A stretch of 31,618 nt of DNA from a virus, in the IMG/VR virus record IMGVR_UViG_3300030202_002409, positions 1-31,618 of that record; one strand, given 5' to 3'. Shown here one piece after another: positions 1 to 31,208 of this stretch. Every line of letters begins with the position of its first letter. The stretch's first letter is position 1. The position numbers and the translations under genes are program-made. The notes under the pieces were generated by a model, which saw nothing but the letters and a program-made list of their open reading frames with translations, was not told the origin of the DNA and did not search any database.

Positions 1-331
1 TCTTATCGGCCTCGAGGCGTTCGATGTATTTCTCCACGCTGGATTGGGCAGCGTAGCCGATTAGCCCCTGCATCACCTGCTTGCATTGAGCGATGATCTC
101 CTTCTCCCGGCTTCGGACTACTGCGATGGTATGCGCTCCGACTTTATACCTTTTCTGGATTCGAGTGAGTGGAGTGCCTTCGACCAGTCCTTGAACTACG
201 CCGGCGTAGGCGTCAGGGCGTTTCTGCTTGAGAGCTGCGGCAGTGTAGACTGACGGGCAAGTCTCCTCGACTGTCGTCTGGGCAGGCAGGTTGTCAGGTT
301 CGACAACGACTCTTCGTTTCTTGGTAGGCAT
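1..331 (-). CDS. Helix-turn-helix DNA-binding protein, partial (C-terminus beyond window)
   Basis: Leftward open frame from the ATG at 331-329 that runs off the left edge, giving at least 110 residues. The N-terminus is basic (MPTKKRR). Residues about 45-80 read as a homeodomain-like HTH (VEGTPLTRIQKRYKVGAHT), a pattern found in phage regulators and small terminase subunits. A helical, charged segment follows (SSVEKYIERLEADK). No clear Shine-Dalgarno sequence precedes the ATG. Paired TTTATAAA boxes lie 24-42 bases upstream. It could be a repressor or activator, or the small terminase subunit that is otherwise missing next to the large subunit. The HTH reading is fairly sure; the role is unknown. 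Confidence 0.75.
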   Translation of the reverse strand, partial: MPTKKRRVVVEPDNLPAQTTVEETCPSVYTAAALKQKRPDAYAGVVQGLVEGTPLTRIQKRYKVGAHTIAVVRSREKEIIAQCKQVMQGLIGYAAQSSVEKYIERLEADK

Positions 332-354
332 GGCGTTTCTAATCGGTGTAAGGC

Positions 355-373
355 TTTATAAAGAGTTTATAAA
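355..373 (-). promoter_or_regulatory. Paired TTTATAAA boxes, possible promoter/operator of the HTH gene
   Basis: Two identical 8-base palindromes, TTTATAAA, are spaced 11 bases apart (about one helical turn) upstream of the leftward HTH gene. Read on the minus strand, the upstream box holds TATAAA, a fair -10 element, preceded by AATTGTCCC with about 17 bases between. The twin palindromes could also be an autoregulatory operator for the HTH protein. Inference from position and symmetry only. Confidence 0.35.
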
Positions 374-494
374 TAGATACACTAACAAGGGACAATTAGA
401 CATAATCACTCTTGTGCGTAGTTGGTTTATTTGAACTAACACTTTGCTTCGTCATGACTGGTAATGACTTACGCAAGCCGAGGGAATTTCCCAC

Positions 495-508
495 GCAGTC
501 ATGACTGC
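495..508. repeat. 14-base perfect palindrome, second copy of a GTCATGACTG repeat
   Basis: GCAGTCATGACTGC is its own reverse complement. Ten bases of it (GTCATGACTG) recur exactly at 451-460, and GTAATGACT lies at 461-469. Repeated dyads in a non-coding region suggest a protein-binding array, such as an operator or replication or packaging site. No function can be assigned from sequence alone. Confidence 0.45.
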
Positions 509-634
509 ACAACGGGTTAAAAATTGCACGGTTTAAAAGGCTCAGGCAGGGGGGGAGGGGGGTCCGGATCGCCGGGCCGCCGGCCAGCCGACCGATTAGC
601 TTCCTCGAAAAAATTTGGGCAATTGGCCATCGGG

Positions 635-1159
635 TCAGCGAGTGTCGCGTGTCGGCGCTAGATAGTCCAAGTCGAGCAACTCGTTCTGATTTAGAAAGTG
701 GCAGCCTTCCTGAACCTCGCCAACCGGCGTAGACTTAACATGCTCTCTGCTTGCCCAGCCGTGAATTTTGTATTCGCCGTCTTTGATCCTTTTCAACTGC
801 TCGACCAGCACATAGGCATCACAATAGACGGCTGATTCATTTACCAGCAGATTTTTCCCTTTCGACTCGGCCGCAACGGTTTTTACGTCTAAAGTGTTAT
901 AACTCAAAATTCGGTTAAACTTAAAGAAGGGAAGTGTGAAATCGGCCAGCCCGGACTGCTCGCCAAAATCCGGGCAGATGTTAAGGGCTTTAGCCACGGC
1001 TAGCTCGCCGGCGGCCCCGATAATTTCGTAATTCATTTTCCGTTCATCGTCTTCCCCGGAAGACTGATCCACTCGGCCGAGTTCTCTACATCGCTCCCGC
1101 CTTTCGTTGGCCATAAACCAAGCCATTCGCCTTTCGCCTCTATCGAGCATTACCAGCAT
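635..1159 (-). CDS. Putative PD-(D/E)XK-like endonuclease / conserved phage protein
   Basis: 174 residues from the ATG at 1159-1157. The frame is open to a TTG at 1186, and an ATG at 1150 is also possible. I chose 1159 because it lies exactly six bases after a perfect minus-strand TATAAT, mirroring the divergent terminase start. The core shows IIGAAGELAVAKAL (a helix with a conserved Glu), then a strand ending in LDVKTVAAES, with D-x-K as expected for motif III, and a C-terminal strand with a GW (KIHGWASREH). This matches small phage proteins of the GA.GE.AVAK type with a restriction-endonuclease-like fold. Substrate unknown: nicking, recombination or host DNA degradation are all possible. 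Transcribed away from the structural operon. Confidence 0.7.
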   Translation of the reverse strand: MLVMLDRGERRMAWFMANERRERCRELGRVDQSSGEDDERKMNYEIIGAAGELAVAKALNICPDFGEQSGLADFTLPFFKFNRILSYNTLDVKTVAAESKGKNLLVNESAVYCDAYVLVEQLKRIKDGEYKIHGWASREHVKSTPVGEVQEGCHFLNQNELLDLDYLAPTRDTR

Positions 1160-1165
1160 CCCACC

Positions 1166-1171
1166 ATTATA
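1166..1171 (-). promoter_or_regulatory. -10 box (TATAAT) of the leftward promoter
   Basis: Read on the minus strand this is a perfect TATAAT. It is followed after six bases by the ATG at 1159, so the transcript would begin at or next to the start codon. Seventeen bases upstream is GTCGCG, one arm of the dyad at 1190-1206, standing where a -35 element would be. Confidence 0.55.
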
Positions 1172-1189
1172 ACGCACCCTCGCCAAACC

Positions 1190-1206
1190 GCGACATTCAA
1201 TGTCGC
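1190..1206. promoter_or_regulatory. 17-base dyad whose arms form the -35 regions of two divergent promoters
   Basis: GCGACATT-C-AATGTCGC is a perfect 8-base inverted repeat around one central base. GTCGC(A/G) in each arm is 17 bases from a perfect TATAAT, leftward at 1166-1171 and rightward at 1225-1230. The arms do not resemble the TTGACA consensus, so the dyad may bind an activator, a repressor or an alternative sigma factor. It sits between the nuclease gene and the terminase gene and is well placed to control both. Confidence 0.55.
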
Positions 1207-1224
1207 AAAAAAGAGTTTACATAA

Positions 1225-1230
1225 TATAAT
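1225..1230 (+). promoter_or_regulatory. -10 box (TATAAT) of the rightward structural operon
   Basis: A perfect TATAAT, 17 bases after GTCGCA of the dyad and six bases before the GTG at 1237. Initiation about seven bases downstream would put the transcript start on the terminase start codon, implying leaderless translation. No Shine-Dalgarno sequence precedes the GTG, which fits this reading. Confidence 0.55.
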
Positions 1231-1236
1231 GTAAGC

Positions 1237-2877
1237 GTGGCCCTGAACTGGACATCTCACCCGGCTCTCCCGATTCTTTCTCCGAAAGAAATGAAGGCCA
1301 TGTCGGCGGAAAAAATCTTGGCCTATTACAATAGACGCGAGGCGGCCATAGCAGCGGAGCGTGAAAGCCCTTACGACTTCGGGTTTGAGCTTGGGCCGTG
1401 GAAGATGGCGGACGAGCAGCTTGCAAGTCATTCGGAACTCTTGCTTATGGGCGGCAATCGTGCGGGCAAATCGGAGCTATGCGCGAAGAGGGTAGTCCAA
1501 TGCCTTACTGAAAACCCCGGCACGGTCATCTGGTGCTTGACCGAGACTTCGGCCAACTCCATCCAGTTTCAGCAAGCCCTCGTTTTCAAATACTTGAAGC
1601 CGGAGCATAAGAGGCTGGGTCGAACTCCGACCGGATACTTGACTTACTCGATCAAGAACGGCTTTACTGCGGCCAAGTTCGTACTGCCTAACAAGAGCGT
1701 CTGCATTTTCCGGAACTGGAGTCAGGACATCAGCACCATCGAGGGCGGGGAGATCGGCTGCCCGGAGCCTCCGGTCAAAGGCACTCACAACATCGGATTT
1801 TGGGCGGACGAGCTTGTACCGCTCCCTTGGGTCGAAACGCTTCGCTATCGTTGCGTCACACGTTCGCATAGGGAGGCTGACGGCGTAGTTCGCTCGGCCA
1901 AGGGGCTGATCAGCTTCACGGCGGTGGACGGCTGGAATCCAACCGTGAAGAGCCTGCTTACCGGGGCGAGGACGGTCAAGTCCACCGAGGCCGACCTTTT
2001 GCCGGGCGAGACAGTCCCGCTGGTCCAGCAGCCACTTCGCAAGGCATCCTCCATTGTCTACTTTCATACGGCTGAAAATCCCTTCGGGGGCTGGGAGGCG
2101 ATGAAGGCTACTCTGGACGGGGAGAAGCGGGAGGTAATCTTGTGCCGGGCCTACGGAGTGCCGGTCAAAGCCTCGAGGGCCATTTTCCCGCTACTCTCGG
2201 ACAAGAACTACCGCGAGCCGGAAAAGATTCCCATCTTAGCGGACCCGGAGAGCAATCCTGCGACATGGGTCTTGAGCATCGATCCTGCGGGGGCGAAGCC
2301 GTGGAGCATGATTTTAATCGGCATCGACGCCCACGGAGTTGCATGGGTAGTGAAGGAGTTTCCGGACTTCGGCAACTTCGGGGCATGGATCGACATGACC
2401 GGCGGGGACAAGCTTCGGGGGGGCGAGGCGAGCAAGCCGAACGGCTACGGTATTCTGGACTACTGCGAAATCATTCGGGAGATGGAGGGCGACAGGAAAT
2501 GCCATCGAATCATCGACCCTCGGCTCGGGGCGGCCAGCTATCAGAAGGCCGAGGGCAGCTCGAACATCATCGACGATCTGCTGGACGAGAATTTGACGGC
2601 CTACCCGGCGGAGGCTTTGGACATCGAGACGGGTTTGCAGGCGATCAACAACCTGCTGGCATGGAAGCCGGAGGAGCCAATGAGCCTCGAGAACAAGCCC
2701 CGGCTAATGATTTCCGAGGAATGCCAGAACACGATTTCCTGTATGCAGGAATATCAGGTCGGGGACTTGAAGCATCCGGCCAAGGATTTCGTGGACTGCA
2801 TTCGGATGTTCGCGGTCGGAGCGTTCGAGCATTTCGAGGATGAGGACATGGCGATCAGCAAACCGAGAGGATATTGA
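1237..2877 (+). CDS. terL: Terminase large subunit (packaging ATPase-nuclease)
   Basis: 546 residues, the usual size for a large terminase. The N-terminal ATPase has Walker A GGNRAGKS (about residues 72-79) and a Walker B-like IGFWADE (about 187-193). The C-terminal RNase H-like nuclease begins near WVLSIDPAGAKPWSM (first catalytic Asp), with further acidic positions in RIIDPRLG and KDFVDCIRMF. It docks on the portal, cuts concatemers and pumps DNA into the prohead. The GTG start is chosen for its spacing from the promoter; ATGs at 1291 and 1303 are alternatives but would trim an aligned-looking N-terminus. It heads the structural operon. No recognisable small subunit lies directly upstream. 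Confidence 0.95.
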   Translation: MALNWTSHPALPILSPKEMKAMSAEKILAYYNRREAAIAAERESPYDFGFELGPWKMADEQLASHSELLLMGGNRAGKSELCAKRVVQCLTENPGTVIWCLTETSANSIQFQQALVFKYLKPEHKRLGRTPTGYLTYSIKNGFTAAKFVLPNKSVCIFRNWSQDISTIEGGEIGCPEPPVKGTHNIGFWADELVPLPWVETLRYRCVTRSHREADGVVRSAKGLISFTAVDGWNPTVKSLLTGARTVKSTEADLLPGETVPLVQQPLRKASSIVYFHTAENPFGGWEAMKATLDGEKREVILCRAYGVPVKASRAIFPLLSDKNYREPEKIPILADPESNPATWVLSIDPAGAKPWSMILIGIDAHGVAWVVKEFPDFGNFGAWIDMTGGDKLRGGEASKPNGYGILDYCEIIREMEGDRKCHRIIDPRLGAASYQKAEGSSNIIDDLLDENLTAYPAEALDIETGLQAINNLLAWKPEEPMSLENKPRLMISEECQNTISCMQEYQVGDLKHPAKDFVDCIRMFAVGAFEHFEDEDMAISKPRGY

Positions 2878-2878
2878 T

Positions 2879-3235
2879 ATGGGAAAGATAACCGAAGAGG
2901 AGGAATTGAAAATCGTGGCTTTGCGGGAAGCCGGCATGAGCTGGGCCAAGCTGGCCGCCGAGAGCGGCTATGCTCGCTCGACCTGTCAGGCGGTCGTCAA
3001 ACGGATGTCCGGCAAGCCGCCTCCGCCGCCTCCGCCCGACCTAACGCCCAAGCCGGTCGAGGCCAGAGTGCTGAAGGCATATCCGAATCCTCGTTTGATC
3101 GGTATTTACTTCGGCGAGCGTAGCGATCCGGAGATGGCCAAGTGCGTAGTCCGGCCTAATTTCAACTATCGTCCCAATTCGATAATACGGGTAATCGAGT
3201 GCGAATATGAGCCGGGACTCTACCGAATTGCTTGA
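2879..3235 (+). CDS. Small HTH protein downstream of terminase
   Basis: 118 residues, starting one base after the terminase stop, with AGAGG about nine bases before the ATG. Residues about 7-41 form an HTH (LKIVALREAGMSWAKLAAES, then GYARSTCQAVVKRM), followed by a poly-proline linker (KPPPPPPP) and a C-terminal domain of about 60 residues I do not recognise. The layout suggests DNA recognition plus a protein-contact domain: a late regulator, or a displaced terminase small subunit. The role is inference; the HTH is clear. Confidence 0.8.
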   Translation: MGKITEEEELKIVALREAGMSWAKLAAESGYARSTCQAVVKRMSGKPPPPPPPDLTPKPVEARVLKAYPNPRLIGIYFGERSDPEMAKCVVRPNFNYRPNSIIRVIECEYEPGLYRIA

Positions 3236-3437
3236 AACACTCGACGAACGGAATCGCAGGCTGGACGCCCTGCTCGCTTCGATGGCCGTCGAGGAGGGCT
3301 TGGCCGTCTTGCAGGGCCGCGAGCCTCGCCAGTATTCGTTGGAGCAGATTGCGGATTTTTGTGGAGTCGGCCCGGCGACTGTCATGCGGATCGAGGAGCG
3401 GGCCTTGAAAAAATTAAGTAAAAAAGTGGTAAGGTAA
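3207..3437 (+). CDS. Sigma-70 region 4-like small HTH protein
   Basis: 76 residues. The C-terminal half (about residues 42-73: YSLEQIADFCGVGPATVMRI then EERALKKLSKKV) closely follows the region 4 pattern of sigma-70 factors, in which an HTH ends in IEERALKKLR and binds the -35 element. Residues 1-40 are a charged helix with no region 2, so it is not a complete sigma factor. It could act as an anti-sigma, co-activator or DNA-binding appropriator of host polymerase. It overlaps the preceding gene by 29 bases, which implies coupled translation, and lies directly upstream of the portal gene. Confidence 0.8.
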   Translation: MSRDSTELLETLDERNRRLDALLASMAVEEGLAVLQGREPRQYSLEQIADFCGVGPATVMRIEERALKKLSKKVVR

Positions 3438-5729: not shown

Positions 5730-5907
5730 GCTAACGCCTCACGAACAATTCGGTAATGAGGTTCGGGCATTGCTGAATCGATATGTTGAAGAATCCGACC
5801 TTGAGGAGTGTACCCTTGCGGAAATAATGCATCACATTTTAAGCCAATGGCTGGATGAAGACGTGTTGGATTTTTCGAGCGACATCGATCTAGAGGATGA
5901 CGACTGA
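5713..5907 (+). CDS. Small acidic hypothetical protein
   Basis: 64 residues from the ATG at 5713 (MPKKNRLTPHEQFGNEVRAL). A TTG 27 bases upstream would extend it but adds unlikely residues inside the previous gene. The C-terminus is strongly acidic (DIDLEDDD). It overlaps its neighbours by 17 and 11 bases. The fold looks helical, and the function is unknown. The acidic tail might contact a basic partner or mimic DNA, which is speculation. Confidence 0.65.
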   Translation: MPKKNRLTPHEQFGNEVRALLNRYVEESDLEECTLAEIMHHILSQWLDEDVLDFSSDIDLEDDD

Positions 5908-6292
5908 CTACCGGGACTCGGCGAAGAGTCAGGGCAGTTATTACGAAAGCCTATTTACTACCGAATGCCTAAAGCGAGGCATTGCGGTCAGCCAGCCAGA
6001 AGGGGATTATTTGCCCTACGACGTTATTACCGACACTCGGCTTGGCCTGAAGCGAGTTCAGGTCAAGGGAACTTCTTACCGAGCCGGGTCGGGCTATAAA
6101 GTGGTCATCGCCCGCTATGCCCCGGACGCCTTCGATTTCATGGCTCTCTACGTTGATGTTCCGGATTTCCGGACATGGTACGTTTTTCCAAAAAAAATTT
6201 CAAGTTCGGCTACGACTATAAAACTGTTCCCGCATAACCCGATAAGCAAAGGAAAGTACGAGCCTTACAAGGCCGCCTTCCACCTGCTTTAA
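5897..6292 (+). CDS. PD-(D/E)XK family endonuclease-like protein
   Basis: 131 residues. The N-terminal helix SQGSYYESLFTTECLKRG carries the conserved Glu, followed by a strand with a motif II Asp (LPYDVITDTR) and the core KRVQVKGTS, the (E/Q)xK form of motif III. GYKVVIARY and FDFMALYVDV are the following core strands. This is the small resolvase-like PD-(D/E)XK nuclease pattern seen in archaeal Holliday resolvases and phage endonucleases. Its place among head genes suggests a role in packaging, branch removal or homing; a free-standing homing nuclease is the main alternative. Fold assignment likely, substrate unknown. Confidence 0.75.
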   Translation: MTTDYRDSAKSQGSYYESLFTTECLKRGIAVSQPEGDYLPYDVITDTRLGLKRVQVKGTSYRAGSGYKVVIARYAPDAFDFMALYVDVPDFRTWYVFPKKISSSATTIKLFPHNPISKGKYEPYKAAFHLL

Positions 6293-27126: not shown

Positions 27127-27318
27127 ATGACAGAGACAACCCAGACCCAGCAGAAGCCCCTACTAATAACCAGAGCCGAGACAATGGCTCTCCTCCAATG
27201 CGGACCCAGAACGTTATCACGTTGGGCCGCCAGATTCAAGTTCGCAAAGCTCGGGCGAAATTACGTCCGGGCTGACGTCGAGAAAAAGATTGCCGCCCTC
27301 GTCGAGGAGGCGGCGTGA
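27127..27318 (+). CDS. Excisionase/MerR-like winged HTH protein
   Basis: 63 residues. LLITRAETMALLQCGPRTLS then RWAARFKFAKLGRNYVRADV is the HTH_17 (AlpA/Xis/MerR-like) pattern: a helix, the turn, a recognition helix with RTLSRWA, and a wing ending in R--YVR--V. Such proteins act as excisionases, transcription factors or terminase-like binders. No integrase is seen in the window, so a regulatory role is as likely as excision. Its TGA overlaps the GTG of the resolvase gene (GTGA). Confidence 0.82.
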   Translation: MTETTQTQQKPLLITRAETMALLQCGPRTLSRWAARFKFAKLGRNYVRADVEKKIAALVEEAA

Positions 27319-27770
27319 GGATAACGCTCGCATCCGATCCCGGCAAGTACGGCGGATACGCCGTGGCATTCGGCTCGCTCGACAAGGTAGAGCTTTACCC
27401 TTGGTCTGAAGAAGACGAGTGGCTCGCTTACCTCGACGAACTGGTAAACTACGAGGACTCGAAAGGGATTGAGGCTGCCGTCGAGCTAGTACCCTCGTAT
27501 GCCGGCAAGGCCGTTCCCAGCAGCACAAGCTTTGTGCTGGGCTACAACTACGGCTTCATATGCGGGAGTATTCGGGCAATGCGAATCCCGCTTCACCTTT
27601 ACCGTCCGCAGGAGTGGCAGAAAGGATTGCCGGGCTTGCAGGGGCTTTCCGGCAATCCTCGCAAAAAGAAACTTCGCGATCATGCGGTCAGGCTCTTTCC
27701 GAAGCTCAAAGGCATCACGCTGAAGACCTGCGATGCTCTGCTCATCCTGAACCATCATCTTTCTCATTAA
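27315..27770 (+). CDS. RuvC-like Holliday junction resolvase (RNase H fold)
   Basis: 151 residues, GTG start preceded by GAGGAGG. The first strand holds SDPGKYGGYAV with Asp8. The second motif is AAVELVPSYAGKA with Glu57, followed by FVLGYNYGFICG and RPQEWQKGLPG, and the last helix has KTCDALLILNHH with Asp140. These are the acidic positions of the RuvC family. The enzyme would cut Holliday junctions or branched replication intermediates before packaging. The length fits RuvC-type phage resolvases. Confidence 0.85.
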   Translation: MRITLASDPGKYGGYAVAFGSLDKVELYPWSEEDEWLAYLDELVNYEDSKGIEAAVELVPSYAGKAVPSSTSFVLGYNYGFICGSIRAMRIPLHLYRPQEWQKGLPGLQGLSGNPRKKKLRDHAVRLFPKLKGITLKTCDALLILNHHLSH

Positions 27771-27801
27771 CTAATACTAAAACTAAACTGAATAAATAAA
27801 T

Positions 27802-28434
27802 ATGGCTATATTATCACCAGTATCCTCTTCAGCGGAAGGCCCGATCACGGGCTGGCCGGTTGAAGGACTCGCCCCGCAGGGGCAACATGTTGTGCTTTGC
27901 CTCGATGTCAAGGACACGCTAAACCATCAGCGTCCGACCTACGAAAACCCGGAGGTCATCGAAACGGTTGACCTCACTCGCTTCCTGTTCGGTCTGCCGG
28001 ACGGGACAATGATCCAGAGCGGCGAGATGAAAATAACTGCTCACGAAAAAGGTAGGCTAATGGCTTTCCTGACGGGTTGGCTTGCCGGACCTCCAGTAAT
28101 GGATGGAACATGGGACTATTGTTCCTTAAAAGGCAGTGGAGCGATGATCACCATCGTCCATAAGGTTAGTCAGAAGGGTAGAACCTATGCCGACATCGCG
28201 AGCGTCTCTCCCGTCATGGACCAGCTTGCCGGGCAAGTCCCGCAGTTAGCGAGCTTCCAGATTCCGGCATCGTCGGCGGAAGTCCCTGCCGCCCAGCCTG
28301 CCCCTGTTCAGCAGGTTCAGCAGGTTCAACCACAGGTTCAGCAGGTTCAGCCGCAAGTTCAGCAGGTTCAGCCGCAAGTTCAGACCCAGCAAACGGCTCC
28401 GGGCTTCACTCAAGTCCAGCAGCCTCCGTTCTGA
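27802..28434 (+). CDS. Phage single-stranded DNA-binding-like protein with Q-rich tail
   Basis: 210 residues. Residues about 25-140 (VVLCLDVKDTLNHQRPTYEN, FLFGLPDG, EMKITAHEKGRLMAFLTGWL, GSGAMITIVHKVSQKGRTYA) match a phage protein family found beside resolvase and exonuclease genes and taken to be an ssDNA-binding or recombination accessory. Residues about 165-200 repeat QQVQPQV, encoded by 21-base tandem repeats, and the chain ends in QQPPF. A folded domain, disordered linker and P-P-F tip resembles bacterial SSB layout, but the acidic residues usual before the tip are missing. Confidence 0.72.
   Translation: MAILSPVSSSAEGPITGWPVEGLAPQGQHVVLCLDVKDTLNHQRPTYENPEVIETVDLTRFLFGLPDGTMIQSGEMKITAHEKGRLMAFLTGWLAGPPVMDGTWDYCSLKGSGAMITIVHKVSQKGRTYADIASVSPVMDQLAGQVPQLASFQIPASSAEVPAAQPAPVQQVQQVQPQVQQVQPQVQQVQPQVQTQQTAPGFTQVQQPPF
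28318..28380 (+). repeat. Three tandem 21-base repeats in the SSB-like gene
   Basis: Units at 28318-28338, 28339-28359 and 28360-28380. The last two are identical and the first differs at three bases; a partial unit precedes them. Each encodes QQVQPQV, so copy-number changes would lengthen or shorten the linker without a frameshift. Confidence 0.9.
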
Positions 28435-29480: not shown

Positions 29481-29683
29481 AGCGAATCCGATCAAAGAAC
29501 TTCGAGGCCATTGGCTTCGACGGGGAGAAGGTGGACTCCAAGGCTACGATCACGCTCTGGGTAACGCCGGAGTTCAAGCGGAAGCTCCGCATTCTGGCGG
29601 CGAACTCCGGGGATGGCTATTCGGTCAGCCAGTACTTGCGTCTGCTTTGCAAGGAGAAGTTCGAGGAGTTGGATGAAGTTTAA
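29477..29683 (+). CDS. Small ribbon-helix-helix DNA-binding protein
   Basis: 68 residues from the GTG at 29477 (GTGA overlap with the exonuclease stop). Residues about 23-64 follow the RHH (Arc/CopG) form: a strand ATITLWVTPEF, helix KRKLRILAANSG, then SVSQYLRLLCKEKF as the second helix. RHH proteins bind DNA as dimers and often repress their own operon. A role controlling the methyltransferase, whose start lies inside its last codons, is plausible. Confidence 0.72.
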   Translation: MKRIRSKNFEAIGFDGEKVDSKATITLWVTPEFKRKLRILAANSGDGYSVSQYLRLLCKEKFEELDEV

Positions 29684-31208
29684 CGTAATAGAAATTTGCG
29701 CCGGAGTAGGCGGCTTTGGACTGGGCTTCGAGCAGTACGGGCAGGTACTGGCCGCAGTCGAATGGGACAAGGCCGCCGCCGGCGTTTACAAATACAATAA
29801 TCCGGAAGTCGAAATGTTCTGCGATCTGACCGAGGTACGGGCTACGGACCTGCCTTGGGATGCGGACGATCTAGTCATATGTGGCGGAACTCCCTGCCAA
29901 GCCTTCTCAGTTGCCGGCCTGCGCGGCTCTCTTTCGGACGACCGGGGCAATCTCGCCTTAACCTTTAATAACTTATGTAATGCAATCGACGATCTTCGAC
30001 TTAATGCTGGAAAAGAACCGGCTATCATCATCTGGGAAAACGTCTGCGGAGCAATCAACACCGACGACAACGCATTTGGATGTATCTTGGCAGGAATGGC
30101 TGGAAGTGATGCCCCCCTCGTTCCAGTCGGAGAGCAGCGCTGGACAAACGCAGGTGTGGTTGTTGGCCCGAGACGAGCCGTCTCTTTCCGGGTACTCGAC
30201 TCCCAATACTTCGGAGTGGCCCAACGCAGGCGAAGAGTCTTTGCCGTTGCTATCGGAGGTGCTAGAAAGTGGGCCGCACCTGAAGCGCTTGTTCCTCAGC
30301 AAAAAAGCCTGCCTCGGAATCCTAAGAAGAGCGAAGGCTCGGTCGAAGGTTCTCCCGGAAATGCTGGATCGAGCGCTACGGGAGCAGGCTTCGGAAAGTA
30401 CGAGGAAGGAGTCGGAACGCTCCGAAGCCAAGAAGGAGACTTAGGCGGCGGAAGCGAGACGCTGGCGGTAGACGTCTACAACGGAGAAATTACCGGCGAG
30501 ACAACTGTAACTGTTACGACGAAAACGGGAGGAGCAGACCAGAGCGGGCCGAAGTTGTTAGTCCCTAAGCAACAAGGAATAGCTTTTGAGCCTCGCAGTG
30601 CCGACGGTGAACCACGCATCGCTGGCGACATCCATAAAGTGGTTTGCCCGACTCTGAACTGCATGTCTGGCGGTCAACGTGAGCCTGCCGTAGTCTCATG
30701 GAACGGCGACGTAACGCCCAAAGCCTCCGAGGACGTGAGCGTTACGCTTCGTAGCCAGCAGGGCGGCGAGGGCGTTGGCGTAGCGACTTATGAGTGGCAT
30801 AATCAAGATAGCCGAATACGTGAACAGCAACAGGCGTCTACTTTATCTTGTAACGCAGGAGGAAAGGAAGGGAATCTGGTACATCATGTGGCCCCTGCGT
30901 TAAGCGCGTCGAACAACCCATCCCGATCCCCACAGTCGAGTGAAGTGACTCAACAAATCAAAGCAGTATATGACGCGACTCTAACGGTTCGCCGGCTCTC
31001 CAGCGTAGAATGCATGAGGCTTCAGGGCTGGCCGGATACTCATTGCGACTTCAAGATGGAGCTGGAGCCGGACGGCAATCGCTGGAAGGCCGCGGGCAAG
31101 GTGGTAAAGCAGGCCGAAGGGCCGAAGTACAAGCAGGCGGGCAACGGCGTGACGGCCAACGTGGCGGCCTACATAGCAGGGAAACTGATGGATGCTCTGT
31201 CGAAGTGA
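29673..31208 (+). CDS. dcm: DNA cytosine-C5 methyltransferase, phage type
   Basis: 511 residues from the ATG at 29673; a frame open to 29613 overlaps the RHH gene. Motif I EICAGVGGFGLGFE (about 6-19), motif IV GGTPCQAFSVAG with catalytic Cys75, motif VI IIWENVCG with Glu122, motif VIII GVAQRRRRVF (about 181-190), motif IX SVECMRLQGWP (about 444-454), motif X QAGNGVTANVAAYIAG (about 488-503). A long target-recognition region (about 195-435) has four loose repeats starting TL(R/N/S)(S/C), at T249, T327, T358 and T390. It would methylate cytosine to shield phage DNA from host restriction; no partner restriction gene is visible. A second gene is embedded in its +1 frame. Confidence 0.95.
   Translation: MKFNVIEICAGVGGFGLGFEQYGQVLAAVEWDKAAAGVYKYNNPEVEMFCDLTEVRATDLPWDADDLVICGGTPCQAFSVAGLRGSLSDDRGNLALTFNNLCNAIDDLRLNAGKEPAIIIWENVCGAINTDDNAFGCILAGMAGSDAPLVPVGEQRWTNAGVVVGPRRAVSFRVLDSQYFGVAQRRRRVFAVAIGGARKWAAPEALVPQQKSLPRNPKKSEGSVEGSPGNAGSSATGAGFGKYEEGVGTLRSQEGDLGGGSETLAVDVYNGEITGETTVTVTTKTGGADQSGPKLLVPKQQGIAFEPRSADGEPRIAGDIHKVVCPTLNCMSGGQREPAVVSWNGDVTPKASEDVSVTLRSQQGGEGVGVATYEWHNQDSRIREQQQASTLSCNAGGKEGNLVHHVAPALSASNNPSRSPQSSEVTQQIKAVYDATLTVRRLSSVECMRLQGWPDTHCDFKMELEPDGNRWKAAGKVVKQAEGPKYKQAGNGVTANVAAYIAGKLMDALSK
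29980..30444 (+). CDS. Overlapping phage protein encoded in the +1 frame of dcm (ILRR family)
   Basis: 154 residues, wholly inside dcm. The order of elements, KNRLSSSGKTSAEQS, THLDVSWQEWLEVMPPSF, GQTQVWLLARDEPS, YSTPNTSEWPNAGEE, SLPLLSEVLESG, RLFLSKKACLGILRRAKARS and KVLPEMLDRAL, matches a phage protein family I recognise (typical core: NTSEW, SLSxxLE, YLSxxACxGILRRAxxRGKxLPxxL). Its dcm-frame counterparts (NAFGCILAGMAG, QRRRRVF) are also conserved, so one DNA stretch appears to code twice. The C-terminal Cys-Arg-Arg helix and Leu-rich segment suggest a small helical protein; the function is unknown. Start codon is uncertain. Confidence 0.72.
   Translation: MQSTIFDLMLEKNRLSSSGKTSAEQSTPTTTHLDVSWQEWLEVMPPSFQSESSAGQTQVWLLARDEPSLSGYSTPNTSEWPNAGEESLPLLSEVLESGPHLKRLFLSKKACLGILRRAKARSKVLPEMLDRALREQASESTRKESERSEAKKET

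Follow-up and report, generated by a model that had tools for sequence, protein, structure and literature searches.

Divergent phage switches and leaderless genes

In phage lambda, the operators of OR are 17 bp long, have an 8+1+8 form and lie between divergent promoters, and a bound dimer activates PRM from a position near -42. The best-known leaderless transcripts of phages are those of repressor genes, like cI of lambda and of PY54. In the telomere phage PY54, cI and cro are divergent and are controlled by one palindromic operator of 16-18 bp, OR3, and both transcripts were mapped as leaderless at the AUG (PMC4488713). Leaderless initiation has also been noted in lambda (PMC3160421). A TAnnnT box whose first T precedes the start by about 10-12 nt, combined with the lack of a Shine-Dalgarno sequence, is the signature of leaderless (TA-led) genes (PMC3160421).

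Here, we analyzed an IMG/VR virus record over its whole stretch of 31,618 nt (the window), in which the large terminase subunit gene terL and a nuclease-like gene diverge from a 17-bp dyad. PY54 cI/cro is the nearest precedent. In both phages, divergent genes have one palindromic operator, presumed in the present case, between their promoters, and leaderless transcripts, mapped in PY54, are predicted here. In contrast to PY54, the flanks of the dyad are terL and the PD-(D/E)XK-like nuclease gene instead of cI and cro, and no regulator or repressor gene adjoins it. The presumed operator is equidistant from both promoters, whereas that of PY54 is next to cI, some 40 bp away from the cro promoter. 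The locus may work like a PY54-type switch but is not classed as one, since the flanking genes code for no regulator. With lambda OR/PRM, where cI is leaderless, it has in common a 17-bp operator of 8+1+8 form between divergent promoters, the operator being presumed and the leaderless starts predicted here; lambda differs by three operators and a leadered rightward gene. The TA-led genes of Zheng et al. (2011) likewise have TAnnnT about 12 bp upstream and no Shine-Dalgarno sequence, but they are cellular genes, whereas here a phage packaging gene is concerned and the associated bacterial bin has no excess of such genes (PMC3160421). The arrangement is conserved and, in all probability, real, but it resembles switches known in other phages.

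Structure of the locus

The following features make up the locus:

635-1159, minus strand: leftward gene, 174 aa, ATG at 1159, presumed leaderless (leader of 0-2 nt), PD-(D/E)XK nuclease-like
1160-1165, minus strand: 6-nt gap between left -10 box and ATG, 6, 7 or 8 nt in relatives
1166-1171, minus strand: left -10 box, exact TATAAT, TATAAT or TATACT in relatives
1190-1206, no strand: perfect 17-bp dyad, GCGACATT-C-AATGTCGC, exact match, presumed operator for one dimeric regulator
1225-1230, plus strand: right -10 box (terL promoter), exact TATAAT, TATAAT or TACAAT in relatives
1231-1236, plus strand: 6-nt gap between right -10 box and GTG, invariant in the clade, 5-8 nt in the wider family
1237-2877, plus strand: terL (Pfam, phrog_2), large terminase subunit of 546 aa with a GTG start and no Shine-Dalgarno sequence, presumed leaderless

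An earlier sequence-only reading had described a 17-base dyad between two perfect TATAAT boxes. These coordinates are right to the base, with 18 bp from dyad to box on each side, and the motif GTCGC(A/G), which does lie 17 nt from TATAAT, is GTCGCG on the left and GTCGCA on the right. In the window, a start codon exactly six bases past TATAAT was found on both sides of the dyad (ATG at 1159-1157, minus strand; GTG at 1237-1239, plus strand). On the right this distance is invariant in the clade, but on the left it is 6, 7 or 8 nt among the relatives, including L135. The window has exactly two copies of the pattern TATAAT-N6-RTG, which both belong to this locus; shuffled sequences contained it 0.17 times on average and reached two copies in 2 of 100 cases. 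Perfect 8-bp inverted repeats with a short loop are not rare window-wide (6 in 31.6 kb), the chance of one inside the 77-nt intergenic stretch being about 0.008 and that of TATAAT at exactly N6 on one side about 0.001. The geometry had been judged too regular to look accidental; it is conservation that raises the locus above chance.

A second dyad over the right -10 box (GTTTACAT-N6-ATGTAAGC, 1215-1236) is broken in the relatives L003 and L006 and was therefore dismissed as chance. The main dyad was also rejected as a terminator: no T-run follows it on either strand and no terminator is listed there. Known structured RNAs gave no Rfam match in positions 1-3000.

Conservation and distribution of the dyad

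Loss of the dyad or of its spacing in close relatives had been named as the finding that would speak against the promoter pair. Both are kept. The 71-bp core, with left -10 box, dyad, right -10 box and terL start, shows no indel in 13 distinct relatives with core identities down to 68%, and the distances of 18 bp on either side of the dyad are invariant in the clade. Among these 13 sequences, 11 of 12 positions in the arms and 10 of 12 in the -10 boxes are invariant, versus 13 of 36 in the spacers (Fisher p = 0.0009 for the arms and p = 0.005 for the -10 boxes, as descriptive values only, because the sequences share ancestry). The conserved dyad core is GCGACA-N5-TGTCGC, and in several clade members the symmetry extends beyond 6 bp (8 bp in the window).

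Each phage genome contains one copy of the dyad. It was found at each of the 15 nuclease-gene loci whose sequence extends upstream, the sixteenth locus being cut inside the gene. In dereplicated terL relatives outside the clade no dyad was detected, and terL relatives outside the clade also lack the nuclease gene at this position. A search for one dyad half, N18 and a -10 box, as the earlier reading had suggested, returned TGTCGC-N18-TAnnnT only at this promoter pair in the window and two full-length relatives. Nine viral contigs contain the exact dyad, seven of them at this locus and two in other phages without the -10 geometry. When the dyad was combined with one -10 box, 13 of 16 matches were this locus; the other three lack a second promoter and are near chance expectation. 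Use of the same operator at other phage genes was therefore rejected, as the off-locus matches lack either the -10 geometry or the second promoter. The simplest history suggested by these comparisons is that the nuclease gene was inserted with its own promoter and the dyad beside an old terL promoter.

The divergent genes and their predicted leaderless starts

In the leftward protein, E52, D73 and D91-V-K93 are invariant in nine sequences, which corresponds to the catalytic pattern E ... D ... (D/E)xK. In a second look with VIA-align, its predicted fold matched mostly PD-(D/E)XK nucleases, including Hjc, NhoI, Eco15I, DpnI, HincII and EcoRV; the Z score of up to 8.3 is modest, so the product is called only nuclease-like. 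Foldseek alone gave no match at E ≤ 0.001, and a sequence search of the PDB returned nothing usable. Several putative nucleases of this type are encoded by the same phage (635-1159, 5897-6292 and 28671-29480), together with a C-5 cytosine DNA methylase gene at 29613-31208.

Protein conservation begins at the ATG of the leftward gene while the distance to the -10 box varies (6-8 nt), so that no start 5' of this ATG comes into question. GGTGGG abuts this ATG directly and is too close for a Shine-Dalgarno sequence, and neither this start nor that of terL has one at a suitable distance. The terL product was assigned by phrog_2 and by Pfam Terminase_6N, the latter just below the cut-off. Its N-terminal segment WTxHPALP is conserved, and GTG 1237 is the only start 5' of this segment because of an in-frame TAA at 1222-1224. 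On both sides of the window, the first T of TAnnnT lies exactly 12 nt upstream of the start.

The upstream regions of 72 terL loci were reduced to 27 by removal of near-duplicates. In 25 of these (the exceptions are L017 and L057), a -10-like box with A2 and T6 has its end 5-8 nt upstream of the terL start codon, and a Shine-Dalgarno sequence was found in none of the 27. The terL family thus has the TA-led signature, with a spacing peak of the -10 box at 5-8 nt and no Shine-Dalgarno sequence. These comparisons support leaderless terL expression as a putative trait of the wider phage family. No comparable upstream region was found at distant prophage-like terL genes from the order of the bin that holds the phage contig. 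The idea that both transcripts begin on their start codons is supported by the comparison, in that protein conservation fixes the starts, Shine-Dalgarno sequences are lacking and the -10 boxes are at leaderless distance. In seven long phage contigs, further candidates for leaderless genes were not consistently kept.

Leaderless starts as a general habit of the host were rejected, since -10 boxes at leaderless distance are not in excess in the bin holding the phage; this also counts against our preferred explanation, two divergent leaderless transcripts around one operator. In E. coli, leaderless mRNAs are started poorly from GTG, which again counts against it, but GTG is an efficient leaderless start in some other bacteria (PMC9031893). 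Transcript-start data for Verrucomicrobiota did not come up in our searches of the literature. The 37,938-bp viral contig that the window matches in circularly permuted form is also present in a marine Opitutaceae bin, and a second terL relative occurs in another Verrucomicrobiota bin. Because bins can be wrong, a Verrucomicrobiota host is only suggested. With terL predicted to be leaderless across this family of marine phages, relatives of which occur in Verrucomicrobiota bins, leaderless initiation would become testable in that phylum. About 685 bases of the window (27729-28413) are absent from the otherwise near-identical contig, at the point where the contig ends join.

The dyad as a putative promoter element

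Relative to both predicted transcription starts, the centre of the palindrome lies at -39. The best -35 matches in the clade reach 3/6 on the right and 2/6, twice 3/6, on the left. An extended -10 (TGn) was found in 20 of 22 dyad-less relatives and in all 20 of those with a recognisable -10 box, versus 2 of 12 on the right and 0 of 12 on the left in the dyad clade. Dyad and TGn are combined in L011 and L013. As its promoters mostly lack TGn and have a poor -35, the dyad seems to have taken over the role of a promoter element. Replacement of the -35 elements by the dyad arms, as proposed before, fits their position, their poor match to TTGACA, their conservation and their correlation with the loss of the extended -10. 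The exchange may have been a single event, since the relatives form one clade. A perfect TATAAT could also work unaided.

In the reading that we prefer, the 71-bp core would consist of two divergent promoters of the sigma-70 type with a single operator between them. The near-consensus -10 boxes would place each transcription start at, or at most 2 nt from, the start codon and yield two leaderless mRNAs, terL to the right and the PD-(D/E)XK-like nuclease gene to the left. Each promoter would use one half of the common palindrome instead of a good -35 or an extended -10, and a dimer at -39 could touch RNA polymerase on both sides. We give one operator at -39, a dimeric regulator and two divergent leaderless transcripts a probability of roughly 0.68. 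The sequences themselves show the elements with their spacing and conservation, the missing Shine-Dalgarno sequences and the lack of a good -35 and, mostly, of TGn; we infer that the starts are leaderless, that a dimeric regulator binds and which sign it has. An activator, to which we give about an even chance, is favoured over a less likely repressor because dyad-less relatives have TGn at terL while dyad-bearing ones mostly do not. It is a more speculative and rather doubtful scenario that the packaging motor gene is leaderless throughout the family, that one clade swapped the extended -10 for an operator in common with the new nuclease gene, and that one activator turns on both transcripts together. 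If an extended -10 was exchanged for an operator, as it appears, the locus is a concise example of how a promoter evolves once a gene has been inserted beside it.

A repressor is the strongest competitor, and we consider it possible without expecting it. A phage or host dimer would cover both -35 regions and silence terL and the nuclease gene until late infection or in dormancy. A single palindrome over both -35 regions is typical of operators, the -10 boxes are near consensus, and Cro of PY54 uses a lone palindrome next to the leaderless cI and cro genes (PMC4488713). However, the dyad replaces promoter elements (mostly no TGn, never a good -35) and is not added to them, which suits an activator better.

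Distinctly improbable is a promoter pair without any regulator, in which TGTCGC is the -35 of a host sigma factor or of one aided by the phage and the palindrome is a by-product of overlapping back-to-back -35 elements. The 6-bp arms do lie at the normal -35 spacing of 17-18, and the phage family encodes small sigma-70 region-4-like proteins. One of these, a 76-aa protein at 3207-3437, scores above the Pfam cut-off for sigma-70 region 4 and is present in all long relatives examined; the full-length relative L093 has a similar protein at another position (about 5817-6044). But relatives with such a gene have different -35 sequences at their terL promoters, and the symmetry is longer than 6 bp in several members. 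A plain -35 common by chance is less likely given that these genomes have no other TGTCGC-N18-TAnnnT in common.

It is barely credible that the dyad serves as a site of packaging (cos/pac) or of replication, with secondary promoter geometry: such sites, the cos/pac type among them, are often found beside terminase genes, but terL relatives outside the clade lack the dyad, the exact 18/18 spacing to two -10 boxes would be left unexplained, and an element at about 545-620 that is kept with and without the dyad is a better candidate. This strongly conserved single element (G-run, ACCGATTG, AAAAAATTT, CAATTG) is present family-wide between the leftward HTH gene and terL, and it is likely a packaging site. 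Outside the clade, terL is close to a conserved G-rich/A-rich element.

Candidate regulators and further possible promoter elements

Relatives without the dyad likewise have the three HTH genes named in the earlier reading (1-331, 2879-3235 and 3207-3437), so that none of these genes is dyad-specific by co-occurrence. A 63-aa excisionase-like HTH protein (27127-27318) was rejected as the regulator, since its position is taken by a diverged counterpart in dyad-less relatives. Across 177 genomes of the order to which the bin belongs, GCGACAWTNAATGTCGC was found only in the phage contig itself, which disfavours a common host regulator.

Just upstream of the leftward HTH gene (2-331), the inverted repeat TTTATAAA-GAG-TTTATAAA at 355-373 represents a possible operator. 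In several dyad-less relatives, the extended -10 TGTCATAAT lies just 5' of the scaffold/capsid genes (L097 2813, G009 28184, G011 33218), where it is probably the promoter of the capsid operon.
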